Assembly: GCA_002897635.1 (NCBI GenBank)
Contig: BDTD01000036.1
Coordinates: 1-64,000 of the forward strand
DNA: 64,000 bases
Source of the DNA: a bacterium BMS3Abin11
GTDB lineage: Bacteria > Pseudomonadota > Gammaproteobacteria > BMS3Bbin11
Direction of reading: 5' to 3'
Part shown: piece after piece, positions 17,004 through 55,769 of the stretch
Numbering within the stretch: the stretch's first letter is position 1
Layout of the letters: every line of letters starts with the position of its first letter
The notes under the pieces: model-generated
What the model was told of the DNA's origin: nothing
The model's input: the letters and a program-made list of their open reading frames with translations, nothing else
Databases searched by the model: none
Program-made: the position numbers and the translations under genes

Positions 17004-17157
17004 AATATTTTCCTCTATATCTATTCCTGATTCAGGACATGCGATCAGATCTTGTTGGAAAGATCTTTTCGCCTAAGCCCCGATAAATATTTCAGCAAAC
17101 CGAAATCAGTAGTGCCGAAACTACCACTGTGTAACAACTACTCTAAAAAGGTAGTTA

Positions 17158-17496
17158 TCAAAGGTCAGGAATAGGGGGGGGTACAATGACTGCCGGCACT
17201 CTGTCGAGGGGGTCCTGTAGACTTGAGGAAGTATTCGATATTGGTGGTGCAGGGGCTGGATTAACGGCAATTGGAAAGACCAGTGCCGTGACACTGGTAT
17301 CACACTGGGAGGCCTCGTCAGGACAGGTTTGGCCTGTAATCTGGTCACGGCAGGAACATTCACTTGTAACGACAACTTTTGTGCTTATCTCAGAATGCCC
17401 CATAGAATGCGATGCACTGGCCATAGCCAGTGGTGATATCAATGGAGATATCACTAGCAGTGCTGATAATAGGATGATTAATCGTGTTAAAGGCAT
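17158..17496 (-). CDS. Small secreted CzcI-like protein upstream of copA
   Basis: A 112-residue exported protein: hydrophobic signal segment (LTRLIILLSALLVISPLISP), then a short His/Cys-bearing part (HSMGHSEIS, ECSCRDQITGQTCPDEASQC) and a proline-rich tail ending PPPIPDL. It resembles CzcI-type leader proteins that precede heavy-metal efflux operons, in size and in Cys/His content, though identity is low. Two other proteins of this layout (26693 and 27281) each head another metal operon here. It lies 154 bases upstream of copA on the same strand. Role unknown; metal sensing or chaperoning is a guess. Confidence 0.6.
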   Translation of the reverse strand: MPLTRLIILLSALLVISPLISPLAMASASHSMGHSEISTKVVVTSECSCRDQITGQTCPDEASQCDTSVTALVFPIAVNPAPAPPISNTSSSLQDPLDRVPAVIVPPPIPDL

Positions 17497-17668
17497 ATTC
17501 TGATCAGGTCAAACTTACTTTAATCTGTGACAATTTATTTATACCTAAGTTCTACAAAAAGAAAAAATTAAACATATTCCTGACACGCTACTCTCCATTT
17601 CCAACAACGATTAACCGGTTGAATTACATCATAAAAAACACCACTCGTCATTTTTATTAAAATTTTCC

Positions 17669-17699
17669 TTGACCTGGAGTCGACTCCAGCCTGTAGACT
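17669..17699 (+). promoter_or_regulatory. MerR-family (ZntR-type) promoter/operator of cassette 1
   Basis: TTGACC and TAGACT are separated by 19 bases, the stretched spacing diagnostic of MerR-family promoters. The spacer contains the palindrome TGGAGTCGACTCCA, which matches the core of the ZntR operator upstream of E. coli zntA as I remember it. It lies 106 bases before the barrel gene. The rest of 17497-17804 shows no gene. Confidence 0.8.
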
Positions 17700-17804
17700 T
17701 CTCACAACTGGAATATTCCTGTCGAAATAATGAATATTCTTCATGAACATGAACCATGTCTTGCTACTCGCACTACATGATAATAGATCAAGAGAGATAA
17801 AAAA

Positions 17805-18629
17805 ATGAAGGGGCATATGTTAAAAGTTTTTTCAGCGTTAGTAATCACGGGTCTAATGAGCAGTCTGGCCTACGCACACGATCCAATATTCAGTATTGGG
17901 CCCCATGTATTGTACAAAAATGGTGTTGAAGTTCACACAGGAGCAGCAACAAAAAAGGCCGGTGATGAAAACGAGCAAGAGGTTTCGCTGGAATTAACCT
18001 ATGGTTTGACCGGCGACTGGGCTGCCGGCATCGATATACCCTATGCCTTCAAGGAGGAAGGCAACGAAAGCAGCAATGGTAGTGGTGATATCTCGGTCTT
18101 TACCAAATACCGCTTCTGGCGTAAGGATTCTTTAGGCCTGCAGGAATCGGCTGCGGTACTAGTAAAAGTGATCACCGACACTGCCAGTGACAATAAGACA
18201 CCCTCGTTAGATAAAGGCACTACAGATACCATACTGGGACTCACCTACGGCTATGAAGGCCGTAAATGGTATCGCTGGGCGAGTGCCCGTTATCGTTTTA
18301 ATGGTAAGAATGACATGGGTATAGACCGTGGCGACAAACTTTTACTCGATCTGGTTGGCGGCATTCGTCCTAAACCTACAGGCTACCTGGAGCCGGACAC
18401 TGTCTGGCTGCTGGAACTCAATACTGAGTTTGGTCAACGTGCCCAGATAGGCGGCAACGATCTGGCTAATACTGGCGGCACCGAGGCATTCATTTCACCG
18501 GGCATCTTCTGGACCAAGCGTAACTTTGCTATTAAAGCTGGCGTGCAAATACCGGTATACAGTGACCTGAACGGAACCCAGGCTGACTCTGATTACCGAG
18601 CCAGACTTACATTTGAGTGGCATTTGTAA
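17805..18629 (+). CDS. Outer-membrane beta-barrel protein, cassette 1
   Basis: A 274-residue exported protein with a signal peptide ending SSLAYA-HDPIF and many alternating beta strands (SLELTYGLTGDWAAGIDIPY, DISVFTKYRFWRKD) ending in the aromatic LTFEWHL, as in outer-membrane barrels. The pattern recalls the MetA-pathway/phenol-type transporter families, but the substrate is unknown. It heads a run barrel, MerP-like, MerT-like, controlled by a ZntR-type promoter, so a metal role is inferred. A full-length paralogue without gaps lies at 39786-40610. A ribosome-binding site AGAGAGATAAAAAA precedes the start. A start at codon 5 (MLKVF) is possible. Confidence 0.75.
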   Translation: MKGHMLKVFSALVITGLMSSLAYAHDPIFSIGPHVLYKNGVEVHTGAATKKAGDENEQEVSLELTYGLTGDWAAGIDIPYAFKEEGNESSNGSGDISVFTKYRFWRKDSLGLQESAAVLVKVITDTASDNKTPSLDKGTTDTILGLTYGYEGRKWYRWASARYRFNGKNDMGIDRGDKLLLDLVGGIRPKPTGYLEPDTVWLLELNTEFGQRAQIGGNDLANTGGTEAFISPGIFWTKRNFAIKAGVQIPVYSDLNGTQADSDYRARLTFEWHL

Positions 18630-47304: not shown

Positions 47305-47712
47305 TTACTTGACCACTTTCAAGCGAGGCTTTTCCTGTTTCTTTGTAACCTGCCTGGACACAGGGTTAATCTCATCATTATCACCATCAGGTTCCGGTGT
47401 GCCACCCTCTTCATGAAAGTAAATACCCTGACCGTTTTCCCGAGCATAAATTGCCAGCACAGCATTAACAGGCACCTCTATATTCATTGACTTACCGGAG
47501 AAACGAGCACTGAAAAGTATCCATTCATTGCCCAGTTTTAAACCCTGTACGGCAGAGAGACTGATGTTCAGAATTATCTGGCCATCATTGATAAATTGTG
47601 TGGGAACAACCACACCCTCTTCGAGGGCGTTAACCAGTAAATGAGGCGTCAGGTCGTTTTCGCAGGCCCATTCGCTGATTGCCCGAATCAGATACGGACG
47701 GGTGGTAGTCAT
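47305..47712 (-). CDS. sspB: ClpXP protease specificity-enhancing factor SspB
   Basis: Adaptor that delivers ssrA-tagged proteins to ClpXP. The N-terminal substrate-binding domain (RPYLIRAISEWACENDLTPH, LLVNALEEGVVVPTQFINDG, QIILNISLSAVQGLKLGNEW) is well conserved. A flexible linker leads to a basic C-terminal tail (QEKPRLKVVK) that matches the ClpX-docking XB motif. 135 residues, 18 bases downstream of sspA, the standard order. Confidence 0.95.
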   Translation of the reverse strand: MTTTRPYLIRAISEWACENDLTPHLLVNALEEGVVVPTQFINDGQIILNISLSAVQGLKLGNEWILFSARFSGKSMNIEVPVNAVLAIYARENGQGIYFHEEGGTPEPDGDNDEINPVSRQVTKKQEKPRLKVVK

Positions 47713-47730: not shown

Positions 47731-48372
47731 TCAGGCTGACTTTTTCTGACGCAGACCCCGTTCGATTTCGCTCAGACTCTGCTGGAAAGCACGGCGACTG
47801 AACAGACGATGAGCGTATTCACTAACCGACTTTGCCTGTGGGGGCATCTCTACACCACAACTGGGTAAACGCCATAGTAGTGCTGCCATATAGCAGTCTA
47901 CAAGGCTGAAATCCTCACCAAGCAAATACGCCTGTACAGCAAAAACAGGAGAAAGGGCGGTTAGGCCATCGCGGATAGCCATGCGGGCTTCGGTAGCTTT
48001 TTTAACATCTTTACCTATACAAGTCGGTAACAGCCGAGTCCAGTCACGGTAGATACGCCTTACCATCAATCGTGCACGGGCACGACTGACAGGATCTACT
48101 GGCATCAGCGGAGGATGCGGCAGACGTTCGTCCAGGTATTCATTAATTAATGTGGAACTGTATAGCACCAGCTCTCTATCAATAAGGGTTGGTGTTTCAT
48201 TGTAAGGATTGAGGTCTGCCAGAACCTCTGATATTTCACTCGAATCCACATACTCAATTTTGCAATCAACGTCTTTTTCAAACAATACAATTCGAGAAGC
48301 ATGGCTGTAGGTGCAGTCATAACCTGAGTAGAGCGTCATGATAGGCTTTCTTGCTGGTGAAGACATGTTCAT
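47731..48372 (-). CDS. sspA: Stringent starvation protein A
   Basis: RNA-polymerase-associated protein with a glutathione S-transferase fold, involved in stationary-phase and stress responses. N-terminal thioredoxin-like part (KPIMTLYSGYDCTYSHASRI, then LADLNPYNETPTLIDRELVL) and C-terminal helical part with PPHPPLMPVDPV-type linker text (LPHPPLMPVDPVSRARARLM). 213 residues as expected. Located downstream of petC and upstream of sspB, as in many gammaproteobacteria. Confidence 0.94.
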   Translation of the reverse strand: MNMSSPARKPIMTLYSGYDCTYSHASRIVLFEKDVDCKIEYVDSSEISEVLADLNPYNETPTLIDRELVLYSSTLINEYLDERLPHPPLMPVDPVSRARARLMVRRIYRDWTRLLPTCIGKDVKKATEARMAIRDGLTALSPVFAVQAYLLGEDFSLVDCYMAALLWRLPSCGVEMPPQAKSVSEYAHRLFSRRAFQQSLSEIERGLRQKKSA

Positions 48373-48492: not shown

Positions 48493-49083
48493 TCAGTGAA
48501 CATCCTTCCAGTATTCCTTTTTCAACAGGTAGGCAAAGACCAGGAAAATTGCCAGAAAAATGAGAACATATACACCCAGCTTATATCTTATCAATTGCAC
48601 GGGTTCGCTCATGTAAACCAGAAAGTTGGTTAAATCACGAGCCACCGTGTCATACTCTTCTTCATTCAATGAACCCGGCTTGACCATTTCAAAACGCTCA
48701 AATATTTTCACGCCGTCCTCATTTTTCTTGAAAATAGCGTGACGAGCACCCTGCAGTTTGTACAAAACATGTGGCATGGCCACATTATCAAACAGAACGT
48801 TGTTCCAGCCTGATGGAGAACTGTCATCGAGATAGAAACTGCGTAGATAAGTATAAATCCATTCAGGACCACGTGAGCGTCCAACCAAAGACAAATCAGG
48901 TGGTACCGTGCCAAACCACTTCTTGGCATCCTCGGCCGACATGGTTGCAATCATCAATTCACCAATCCGATCAGTAGTAAACAACATGTTGTCTTTTACC
49001 ACCTTTTCGGGAATCTGAAGATCCTTTGCCATGCGGTTATAACGCATAAAAGCCGCACTGTGGCAAGACAGACAGTAATCAAC
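48493..49083 (-). pseudogene. petC: Cytochrome c1, 5'-truncated at an IS200-type element
   Basis: C-terminal ~196 residues of the cytochrome c1 subunit of the bc1 complex. It begins exactly at the haem motif (VDYCLSCHSAAFMRYNRM), continues with typical text (YTYLRSFYLDDSSPSGWNNV; LFDNVAMPHVLYKLQGA) and ends in the membrane anchor (LGVYVLIFLAIFLVFAYLLK). The signal peptide and the first ~35 residues before CxxCH are missing; the minus-strand DNA runs straight into the insertion element. Beyond the element there is no petC 5' part, no petB and no petA, which normally precede. An alternative GTG inside the element end would give an unexported protein, unable to take haem. Confidence 0.85.
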
Positions 49084-49680
49084 GACCACCCGCAGAGCGG
49101 GTGGTATGATGAAAGCCCCTGGAAGGGGCTATTGTTAAACTCCTATTAATCTTATTTGCTCCTGGCGTTTCTCTTCCTGTTCCTGATTCTTAATGTAGGT
49201 GCGAATCGTCTCTTCATCTAATCCCACTGTACTGACACAGTAGCCTCGGACCCAAAAATGCCTGCCTGTGAAGTTCCGCTTCACCTGCAAATATTCTCTG
49301 AATATCCGTATCGCCGATTTCCCTTTCAGAAACCCTATCGTATTGGCCACACTATACTTTGGTGGGATCATCAACAGCATATGCACATGATCACCCATCG
49401 CATGGCCTTCTACCAGTTCAATACCATTCTGACGACACAGATCTCGAAAAATACCTCCAATATCCTTTCTTAATACCCCATATATCGACTTCTTACGATA
49501 TTTAGGAACAAACACTACGTGATATCTGCAATAATGTTTAACGTGAGCTTGGCGCTGCCACTCTCTCATAATGGCCTCCTATAGAACTTGCCGGTTCAAT
49601 GAGAGGCCATTATCTTCTCTGCACGGCGCAACGGCAGAGCCTTTTCGTGTCTCACCGCCTGAGGCGGTGGTTTACCTAGA
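49084..49680 (-). mobile_element. IS200/IS605-type element without tnpB
   Basis: A single transposase gene flanked by subterminal hairpins: ACCACCCGC/GCGGGTGGT (49085-49105) and AGCCCC/GGGGCT (49114-49130) at one end, and CACCGCC/GGCGGTG (49653-49669) at the other. No terminal inverted repeats and no target duplication are expected for this family. The inner edge is fixed by the petC reading frame; the outer edge is approximate. Confidence 0.85.
49135..49569 (-). CDS. tnpA: IS200/IS605-family transposase TnpA
   Basis: A 144-residue HUH-type, single-strand DNA transposase (Y1). HVKHYCRYHVVFVPKYRKKS near the N-terminus is highly conserved; the HUH pair is in GDHVHMLLMIPP, and the catalytic tyrosine is in FWVRGYCVSTVGLDEETIRT or the following YIKNQEQ, the latter being the usual place. 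The protein is full length and all motifs are intact, so the element may still be mobile. Confidence 0.95.
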   Translation of the reverse strand: MREWQRQAHVKHYCRYHVVFVPKYRKKSIYGVLRKDIGGIFRDLCRQNGIELVEGHAMGDHVHMLLMIPPKYSVANTIGFLKGKSAIRIFREYLQVKRNFTGRHFWVRGYCVSTVGLDEETIRTYIKNQEQEEKRQEQIRLIGV

Positions 49681-49791
49681 TGTAATTAACGTACGTCAGG
49701 CGTCAGCGTATTATAACTCTTTAAGAGGTTGGGTTTCTTGATTTAATCCCTAAAATAAATATTTTTCTGTTGAAAGAGGTTAGGTACATCC

Positions 49792-50958
49792 ATGCAAGCA
49801 TTCGTCAAAACCATTGTGGTTACCCTGTTTGTGGCCGCTTTTTTTACTTACTTCTTCACCAACTTCAGCGTATTTACAACACAGGAAGACAGCAAGCAGC
49901 CTTTTTTTCAAATCGCTGAAGCAAAACCTCCAGCGGGTTCCGGCCCCGTTTCCTACTCATCAGCAGTCAAGGCCGCCTCTCCCGCTGTGGTAAACATCAA
50001 CACAGAAAAAGTTGTTACTGTTCGCAGTCACCCCTACTTCAATGATCCCGTGTTTAAACAAATGTTTGGTAATTTGATAGTCGACGGTTCTATAGCACGC
50101 AAGCGCATCGAAAACAGTCTGGGTTCTGGTGTGATTATCAATCCGGATGGCTATGTACTGACAAACAACCATGTCATACAGGGTGCCGACACTATCCAGG
50201 TCTCTCTAAAAGATGGTCGCAGCAGTACTGCAAAAGTAATCGGCACTGATCCGGAAACAGATATTGCCTTATTGAAGATCGATCTCGACAATCTGCCGGT
50301 AATTATTATTGGTGATTCTGAACAGCTGGAAATTGGTGATGTGGTACTGGCCATAGGCAACCCGTTTGGTGTCGGTCAGACAGTGACTATGGGCATAGTC
50401 AGCGCTACAGGACGCACCCGGCTTGGCATCAACACGTTCGAAAATTTTATCCAGACCGATGCCGCCATCAACCCCGGTAACTCCGGTGGTGCACTGGTCG
50501 ATGCATATGGCAAACTGATAGGAATCAATACCGCTATATTCTCGCGTAGCGGCGGATCACAGGGGATTGGCTTCGCCATCCCTAGCAAGATGGCCAAAAA
50601 TATCATGGAACAACTAATAAAATACGGTCACGCAGTACGTGGATGGCTGGGCTTCGAAGGTCATGCATTAACCCCAAGACTGGCAGAATCCCTGCAGTTA
50701 GAAACCACTGAAGGTATCATCATTACAGCAATCGTTCGTAACGGACCCGCCCATAAAGCTGGACTGGAGCCGGGCGACGTCATCGCCGGTATTGACGGTA
50801 AAAAAGTCAAAAGCGGCCAGGATGCACTGGCAGTTATTTCAGGCAAAAAACCCGGTGAAAAGGTAACCCTGATAATCAAAAGAAACGGCAGACGGTATAC
50901 TGTTACAGCAACAACCATTGCCAGACCACCACAGGCCATCAGCGAAGTAACACAATAA
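49792..50958 (+). CDS. degS: DegS/AlgW-type periplasmic serine protease with one PDZ domain
   Basis: Trypsin-like HtrA-family protease anchored by an N-terminal helix (VKTIVVTLFVAAFFTYFFTN) and facing the periplasm. In DegS/AlgW it senses misfolded outer-membrane proteins and starts RseA/MucA cleavage. Catalytic triad: His in GYVLTNNHVIQGAD, Asp in DPETDIALLKID, Ser in AINPGNSGGALVDAYG. A single PDZ domain follows (about 285-375; AHKAGLEPGDVIAGIDGKKV), which separates it from DegP. 388 residues. Next to petABC in many gammaproteobacteria, which makes the missing pet genes on its upstream side notable. Confidence 0.9.
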   Translation: MQAFVKTIVVTLFVAAFFTYFFTNFSVFTTQEDSKQPFFQIAEAKPPAGSGPVSYSSAVKAASPAVVNINTEKVVTVRSHPYFNDPVFKQMFGNLIVDGSIARKRIENSLGSGVIINPDGYVLTNNHVIQGADTIQVSLKDGRSSTAKVIGTDPETDIALLKIDLDNLPVIIIGDSEQLEIGDVVLAIGNPFGVGQTVTMGIVSATGRTRLGINTFENFIQTDAAINPGNSGGALVDAYGKLIGINTAIFSRSGGSQGIGFAIPSKMAKNIMEQLIKYGHAVRGWLGFEGHALTPRLAESLQLETTEGIIITAIVRNGPAHKAGLEPGDVIAGIDGKKVKSGQDALAVISGKKPGEKVTLIIKRNGRRYTVTATTIARPPQAISEVTQ

Positions 50959-51416: not shown

Positions 51417-51579
51417 GGAACCTCTGATCAATTCATGAACTCGTATCTTACGCCTAAAATATCCAGTTTTTTCGTTGCAAACCTTCGCAATAGATAGCTA
51501 TTACGTGTGATTTGCGCCTCAAACCTGAATATTTTAGATCGCAATCTACTTCGTCCAGAATTAATCAGAGGTTCCCTAA
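51414..51579. mobile_element. MITE-like element, copy A (~165 bp)
   Basis: Imperfect terminal inverted repeats (TAAGGAACCTCTGATCAATT and GAATTAATCAGAGGTTCCCT) bracket a non-coding core containing CTTCGCAATAGATAGCTATT and ACGTGTGAT. The second copy at 55575-55739 has the same length and core. Confidence 0.65.
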
Positions 51580-51623
51580 GATTTTTTAAATTCGGGTAGT
51601 ACAAAAGTGCCGGATTTAATTAT

Positions 51624-53144: not shown

Positions 53145-54686
53145 TTACCCTAGAAATAATTTATAAGCTGGATTATCCGTCTCTTCAATATAAGAATATC
53201 CAAGCTCCTTAAGGAACAACTGAAATGCCTTTTTCTCTTTAGGCGGCACTTGCATACCAACTAAAACGCGACCAAAATCATCACCGTGATTGCGATAGTG
53301 GAACAAACTTATATTCCAGGTTTTGCCCATTTTACTTAGAAAACCCAACAGGGCACCAGGACGTTCCGGAAAACGGAAACGGAACAGCCGCTCATTATTG
53401 GCATGGCCAGCATGGCCACCGACAAGATGGCGCATGTGCATTTTCGCCATCTCATTATCGCTCATATCAATCGCCTCGTAGCCTTTGCTGTGTAACTTTT
53501 CCAATAGACCAACCAGCTCTTCGGGGTCCTGCACCTGCAAGCCAACGAAAACATGGGCCTTATCTGCACTGCTGTAACGGTAGTTAAATTCGGTGATCCC
53601 GCGCCTGCCGAGTACTGAACAGAAAGTTCGAAAACTACCCGGCCGCTCGGGAATAGTAACAGCAATAATTCCTTCTCGGCGCTCACCGATTTCTGCGCGC
53701 TCCGCAACATGACGCAGCCGGTCAAAATTCATATTGGCACCGGATGTCACTGCCACCAGATCAAGGCCCGTTAAATTATGCTCGGCAACATATTTTTTTA
53801 TCCCTGCGACAGCCAATGCACCGGCCGGTTCAGTGATTGATCGGGTGTCTTCAAAGATATCCTTGATGGCGGCGCAAATCTGATCTGTACTAACAGTGAT
53901 TACTTCATCAACAAAATCTCGTGCCAGTTTGAATGTTTCCCTGCCAACCTGCTTAACTGCCACACCGTCAGCAAATATCCCGACTTCTTTCAATCTCACA
54001 CGACGGCCCGCTTCCAGTGACTGCTTCATTGCATCCGCATCCTCCGGTTCCACACCTATGACCTTTATATCAGGGCATAGCATTTTGACGTAGACCGCTA
54101 TACCAGCAATCAACCCACCGCCACCCACAGGCACAAAGATCATATCGGGCAGTGATTTATGCTGCTTGAGGATTTCAAAACCGATGGTTCCCTGGCCTGC
54201 TATCACATACGGGTCATCATACGGGTGGATAAATACACCCCCTTTTTCCTTGCAATAGCGTATCGCTGCCTGGTAAGCGTCATCATAGCTGTCTCCGATC
54301 AGTTTTGTAGTGGCACCATAGCCACGAACCGCATTAACCTTAATCCTCGGGGTCGTATCTGGCATGAAAATGGTTGCCTTGATACCCAGTTTGCGCGCAG
54401 CTAGCGCAACCCCCTGGGCATGGTTTCCGGCTGAAGCCGCTACGACGCCACTTTTCATTTCTGCTTGCGTAAGATTTGCCATCTTGTTGTAGGCACCACG
54501 CAATTTAAACGAAAAAACTGCCTGCAAATCCTCGCGTTTTAAAAAAATCCGGTTCTGCAGACGCTCGCTGAGGGTCTTCGCAACTTCTAGTGGTGTTTCT
54601 TTCGCTACATCATATATCTGCGCGGTCAATATCCTACGCAGATATCTTTCCGGCACACTCATCCGTTTCTTTTGCTCACAATTCAT
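53145..54686 (-). CDS. ilvA: Biosynthetic threonine ammonia-lyase
   Basis: PLP enzyme that converts threonine to 2-oxobutanoate, the first step of isoleucine synthesis. PLP lysine in FSFKLRGAYNKM (about residue 60), glycine-rich loop VPVGGGGLIAGIAVYVKM, and two C-terminal ACT-like regulatory domains (about 335-420, IAVTIPERPGSFRTFCSVLG; about 425-513, FRFPERPGALLGFLSKMGK) that mediate isoleucine inhibition. 513 residues, normal for the long biosynthetic form. Divergent from rpiA. Confidence 0.95.
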   Translation of the reverse strand: MNCEQKKRMSVPERYLRRILTAQIYDVAKETPLEVAKTLSERLQNRIFLKREDLQAVFSFKLRGAYNKMANLTQAEMKSGVVAASAGNHAQGVALAARKLGIKATIFMPDTTPRIKVNAVRGYGATTKLIGDSYDDAYQAAIRYCKEKGGVFIHPYDDPYVIAGQGTIGFEILKQHKSLPDMIFVPVGGGGLIAGIAVYVKMLCPDIKVIGVEPEDADAMKQSLEAGRRVRLKEVGIFADGVAVKQVGRETFKLARDFVDEVITVSTDQICAAIKDIFEDTRSITEPAGALAVAGIKKYVAEHNLTGLDLVAVTSGANMNFDRLRHVAERAEIGERREGIIAVTIPERPGSFRTFCSVLGRRGITEFNYRYSSADKAHVFVGLQVQDPEELVGLLEKLHSKGYEAIDMSDNEMAKMHMRHLVGGHAGHANNERLFRFRFPERPGALLGFLSKMGKTWNISLFHYRNHGDDFGRVLVGMQVPPKEKKAFQLFLKELGYSYIEETDNPAYKLFLG

Positions 54687-55448: not shown

Positions 55449-55574
55449 AGGGTAATTACAAACACAATATTTTTAATAAAAATCCTTCCACCACAGAGGA
55501 CACAGGGAGAACAGGGGAAAGAAAAGATTTAGCCGGGAGCCTGTCGGACTTAGGTCCGACAAGCTTCTAATGAC

Positions 55575-55739
55575 TATAGGGCACTCTATTAATCCATGAA
55601 TATTCATCTTCCATCCCAAATCGTCCCTCTCTGCGTTAAGAATCTTCGCAATAGCTAGCTATTACGTGCGATCCTTGCCTTGATATGAACAATTTTGAAT
55701 GCAATCTGATCTATCCAGAATTAATAGAGGCGCCCTATA
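55575..55739. mobile_element. MITE-like element, copy B (165 bp)
   Basis: Terminal inverted repeats TATAGGGCACTCTATTAAT and ATTAATAGAGGCGCCCTATA. The core CTTCGCAATAGCTAGCTATT then ACGTGCGAT and the 3' segment TATCCAGAATTAAT match copy A. No reading frame. It fills most of the rpiA-trmB gap (55449-55769). Confidence 0.65.
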
Positions 55740-55769
55740 ATTTACGAATTTTTTTAAAACAACTACGCA

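Follow-up and report, generated by a model that had tools for sequence, protein, structure and literature searches.

The genes for the cytochrome bc1 complex appear at this locus to stop at an insertion element, which raises the question of whether the bacterium has genuinely lost the complex through a deletion beside the element, or whether the gap was created during assembly. The window, that is the whole stretch of 64,000 nucleotides analysed, covers the opening 64 kb of contig C36 (84,300 bases), and the genome to which it belongs (G000) comprises 2,669,039 bases in 38 contigs, is 99.92% complete and 0.03% contaminated. The principal features of the locus are:

47305 to 47712, reverse strand: sspB, intact (PF04386).
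47731 to 48372, reverse strand: sspA (GST-like), an intact gene that follows petC, an order shared with relatives.
48493 to 49076, reverse strand: remnant of petC (cytochrome c1), from a PF02167 match and alignment.
49077 to 49683, reverse strand: IS200-type insertion element of 607 bp with tnpA only, delimited by the ends common to three genomic copies.
49792 to 50958, forward strand: gene for a degS-type periplasmic serine protease, intact (PF13365, PF13180; 93% identical to that of G003, a genome of the same genus).

The petC remnant covers all but the N-terminal quarter of cytochrome c1, from the CLSCH haem motif to the C-terminal membrane anchor, scores 56 bits against Cytochrom_C1 (PF02167, cut-off 22.8) and is 86% identical to petC of G003. 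The preliminary description had petC beginning at the haem codons where the element ends, and this was borne out; the translated remnant starts at the Tyr preceding CLSCH, in which the CXXCH motif is kept, and the element lies immediately upstream, from 49077. A mechanically called open reading frame continues to a nominal GTG start at 49089, which is within the element. The signal peptide and the first ~45 codons of petC are gone, leaving a product that lacks what a functional cytochrome c1 requires for export and haem attachment.

The extent of the loss was defined by comparison with G003, in which the gene order is sspB-sspA-petC-petB-petA with degS divergent, and in which both flanks of the gap are collinear with the window (88% identical DNA on the petC side and 91% on the degS side). 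By G003 coordinates 2199 bp are missing, consisting of the first ~45 petC codons, petB (409 aa), petA (203 aa) and 227 bp of the petA-degS spacer. The proteobacterial petABC operon occupies this same neighbourhood between sspA and degS in the congeners G003, G006 and G001, an arrangement that the preliminary description had called common in gammaproteobacteria, and against these operons the window retains only the 3' part of petC; petC is also present in G002. Among named relatives, the same locus occurs in MAGs that carry the label Arenicellales or Gammaproteobacteria and presumably come from marine sediment or vents. The stretch from which petABC is gone is bounded on its other side by degS, and alignment confirmed that the sequence beyond the element (49690-49791) is the degS upstream region and contains no 5' sequence of petC. 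Further along the window an ilvA-like threonine dehydratase gene is open (53145-54686); in G003 it is split over two frames (L034 14239-14856 and 13319-14257).

No cytochrome b was found anywhere in the G000 assembly with PF00033, nor with PetB of G003 at E ≤ 10, while the family was detected in five of the six other genomes of the genus and in 48 of the 56 genomes examined, G000 included. Three Rieske-domain proteins are encoded, one NirD-like and beside nirB, one CMD-fused and one fused to a glutamate-synthase domain, and none of the three is PetA. A search of the remaining genome for another petABC, which had been proposed as a check, therefore returned nothing; a second bc1 locus was rejected as petA and petB are absent from the whole assembly, and G000 has neither the cytochrome b nor the Rieske subunit that a functional cytochrome bc1 complex requires. 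G005 (91% complete), which is also without petB, was considered as a second loss and rejected; its contig C12 ends inside sspA.

The element itself and its boundary with the degS side were characterized by aligning the three genomic copies on the transposase strand, from which the element ends were set:

49135 to 49569, reverse strand: tnpA, an open frame of 144 aa for an HUH single-strand transposase (Y1_Tnp, PF01797).
49085 to 49105, reverse strand: right-end subterminal hairpin ACCACCCGC/GCGGGTGGT, from folding, kept in three copies.
49653 to 49669, reverse strand: left-end subterminal hairpin CACCGCC/GGCGGTG, from folding, kept in three copies except for one loop base.
49684 to 49689, reverse strand: TTAATT, the target hexamer, on the 5' side of the element; comparison with petC of G006 (TTTGTTAATT) assigns it to petC.
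49689 to 49690: deletion junction, at which GTTAATT from petC meets the degS-side sequence ...GACGTACGT, the two overlapping by 2 bp.

TnpA matches Y1_Tnp at 126.3 bits (cut-off 23, E 8.9e-37). The two further copies, on C5 (95% identical) and C37 (90%), are both internal to their contigs. Each of the three copies has TTAATT in front of it and CGTTGATT as its last bases, beyond which the sequences diverge, and the right-end sequence TTGATT and the lack of target duplication at the right flanks likewise refer to three copies. Folding of the right-end stretch, which includes a second hairpin, gave a z of -6.4, and folding of the left end was weaker, at only -1.1. The third copy (L032 8148-8571; C37 50027-50640) is decayed, its tnpA carrying a frameshift and a stop. 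The Y1/HUH transposase, a subterminal palindrome at each end, insertion on the 3' side of a fixed short sequence and the absence of tnpB from the 607 bp are all shared with the IS200-like (tnpA only) group of the IS200/IS605 family; no difference from the family was found, with TTAATT and TTGATT defined from these three copies only. By its domain, hairpins and target site the element belongs to IS200/IS605, and it is predicted to transpose as a single strand. Dispersed palindromic MITE-like repeats of ~162 bp with ends GGAACCTCTGATTAATT were also observed, at 51417-51582 and 55560-55745 of the window and on C5, C8, C15 and C23; copies are up to 98% identical, and on C15 one seems to be nested in another.

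The flanks of the element permit a history of the locus to be proposed. On the right of the element petC continues unaltered (ACTGTCTG), and the left flank (GACGTACGTTAATT) is composite, GTTAATT fitting petC and GACGTACGT fitting the degS side of G003; the junction is read directly from the sequence. At the point of insertion petC of G006 reads TTTGTTAATTATTGCC, and G003, G001 and G002 read TTTGTTAACTACTG. One relative, G006, has TTAATT at the petC site, and none of three has it at the degS-side breakpoint (G003, G006 and G001 read CTTGA there), which suggests that the element entered petC first and that the deletion came second. Insertion before deletion is the simplest history consistent with these alignments, although only G006 has TTAATT in petC there, G003, G001 and G002 having TTAACT, which counts against it. 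In a first step the element, moving as a single strand, would have entered 3' of TTAATT in petC, at the Asn-Tyr codons just ahead of the CXXCH haem motif. In a second step a deletion, which looks like illegitimate joining, would have fused the left edge of the element, with TTAATT kept, to the petA-degS spacer, removing the 5' part of petC together with petB and petA and leaving a cell without a bc1-type quinol:cytochrome c oxidoreductase. The preliminary description had favoured a deletion next to the element, which remains the best reading, now refined to an insertion in petC followed by a deletion from the left end of the element.

A second lesion lies in the same respiratory branch. The only PF00115 matches in G000 are two pieces of one ccoN in different frames:

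Contig C5, about 17050 to 18467: ccoN, the sole haem-copper oxidase gene, with a one-base deletion.

Alignment with four intact relatives located the missing base after CGAAAA, beside an A4 run and near position 18,030 of contig C5, and detected no other lesion; the single continuous CcoN frame that a functional cbb3 oxidase requires is interrupted. Programmed -1 frameshifting was rejected for the site (CGAAAATTAAAC), which to our knowledge fits no standard slippery heptamer. No cyd-type oxidase was found in G000 as a replacement (a match in G003 was partial), and no alternative oxidase turned up in any of five genomes, a weak negative since the controls gave none either.

Loss of bc1 with ccoN broken only by a sequencing or assembly error, so that a working cbb3 oxidase is fed by cytochromes c reduced through other routes, is possible but unlikely. 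It is favoured by the nature of the lesion, a single base missing next to the A4 run in an otherwise undamaged gene, and by ccoO and ccoP, which are intact, as is ccoG, and which count against loss of the oxygen branch. Frameshifts were surveyed in 402 kb of G000, which was compared with 313 open frames of relatives, each of 120 aa or more; 224 frames matched at 60% identity or more, representing 150 distinct G000 genes and 149,414 coding bases, among which only ccoN was split over two frames. The fair figure is zero frameshifts in the other 149 genes, since the C5 region was picked on account of ccoN, and a random error striking ccoN in particular is accordingly improbable. Three other flagged places were dismissed, a cytochrome beside narG that matched without its N-terminus and had no second frame, and two small frames antisense to hslU. 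The frameshift is present in the assembled sequence, and ccoN is presumably truly dead.

The substitution patterns bear on the age of both lesions. The dN/dS of the petC remnant was 0.137 between G000 and G003, similar to the 0.133 between G003 and G006, and gave no sign of the relaxed selection that might have served as a clock for an old petC loss; 13 residues were changed only in G000 and 8 only in G003. The two halves of ccoN gave 0.086 and 0.040. As there is no clear relaxation of constraint, either both losses are recent or, for ccoN, a sequencing error may be responsible.

With regard to the gap itself, misassembly at a multicopy element had been put forward as the main alternative; it was retained as a rival and now appears quite improbable. 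What would have been collapsed is either a pair of direct copies of the element, one in petC and the other upstream of petA, or a mixture of strains that have and lack petAB, the assembler crossing one copy and a ~2.2-kb petAB piece falling below the contig cut-off. Segments of ~2.2 kb are often dropped as short contigs, a practice that the size of the missing segment matches, and the genome has three copies of the element in an assembly of 38 contigs. However, a copy upstream of petA would need a TTAATT of its own where three relatives have CTTGA, and the novel join, at which petC-derived GTTAATT is fused to the spacer at a 2-bp overlap, lies outside the repeat. This position of the join makes misassembly unlikely, as a false join at a repeat would be expected inside it, and so does the divergence of 5-10% among the three copies. 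Contig C5, moreover, begins inside a near-identical 162-bp repeat, so the assembly seems to stop, and not to jump, at repeats that it cannot resolve. A real deletion by recombination between two direct copies, or by TnpA strand transfer from the right end of the element into the petC target, is less probable still, since, although TTAATT at the petC site is a preferred target of the element and either path gives the same right junction, both require TTAATT to have been native to the degS side, where it is not seen in G003, G006 or G001.

These data argue that the locus probably records a genuine two-step loss of bc1, by insertion of the element and a linked deletion, and that with the ccoN frameshift the oxygen branch would be disabled. 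The branch that is independent of bc1 is intact. NarG, NarH, NarI, NirB and NuoG (complex I) all scored above curated cut-offs, while the NarJ score of 34 did not reach its cut-off of 59. Two NarK-like transporters, so named from sequence, and a c-type cytochrome adjoin the nar genes, and the NirD-like Rieske protein adjoins NirB. Nar draws electrons from quinol without bc1. NarGHI and NirBD are independent of the lost complex and their genes, present in the assembly, are intact; the quinol pool would be drained by NarGHI to nitrate, and nitrite would be handled by NirBD. Beside the cco cluster lie what we take to be a QmoB/HdrA-like protein and HdrC- and HdrB-like proteins, and these predicted genes suggest sulfur oxidation. 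A further cluster on C23 (L148 2922-8279) encodes a DsrO-like FeS protein, an NrfD-type membrane protein, a PsrA/PhsA/QrcB-related Mo-oxidoreductase and a NapC-like multihaem cytochrome with more haem domains. This Psr/Qrc-like Mo-FeS-NrfD-multihaem cluster could connect quinone with cytochrome c, a role of possible importance after bc1 loss; it was considered as a substitute for bc1, and family scans gave no assignment.

Another gammaproteobacterium, Candidatus Azoamicus ciliaticola, provides a comparison. An oxygen branch is retained by most nitrate respirers. According to the published account, nearly every known denitrifier has a hybrid chain, and Ca. Azoamicus ciliaticola, a reduced endosymbiont with full denitrification and no oxidase genes, respires nitrate, has lost its aerobic terminal oxidases and has kept bc1 (qcrABC) (PMC7969357). 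The two share nitrate respiration, with aerobic oxidases lost in the endosymbiont (PMC7969357) and ccoN frameshifted here. Unlike Ca. Azoamicus, G000 has a genome of 2.67 Mb, bc1 is gone, ccoN is only frameshifted and nitrate reduction consists of NarGHI and NirBD. No paper title was found that names bc1 loss beside an insertion element, in a search of titles; what is new here is the ccoN frameshift alongside the bc1 loss.

The preliminary description had seen a large respiratory change in the loss of bc1; with ccoN frameshifted and nitrate respiration intact, both outside what it had covered, that loss takes on a different meaning. Most likely, a recent insertion and linked deletion removed bc1 in a gammaproteobacterium that respires nitrate and is losing its oxygen branch. 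More tentatively, an apparently free-living, probably sulfur-oxidising organism may be on the way to becoming an obligate nitrate respirer, with bc1 deleted and the sole oxygen reductase frameshifted, both recently, and complex I-NarGHI-NirBD kept. The insertion event alone is ordinary, the paired lesion in one respiratory branch less so, and the exact junctions given here are testable in metagenome reads. If true, the two lesions would show how the loss of aerobic respiration begins at the genetic level outside an endosymbiont.
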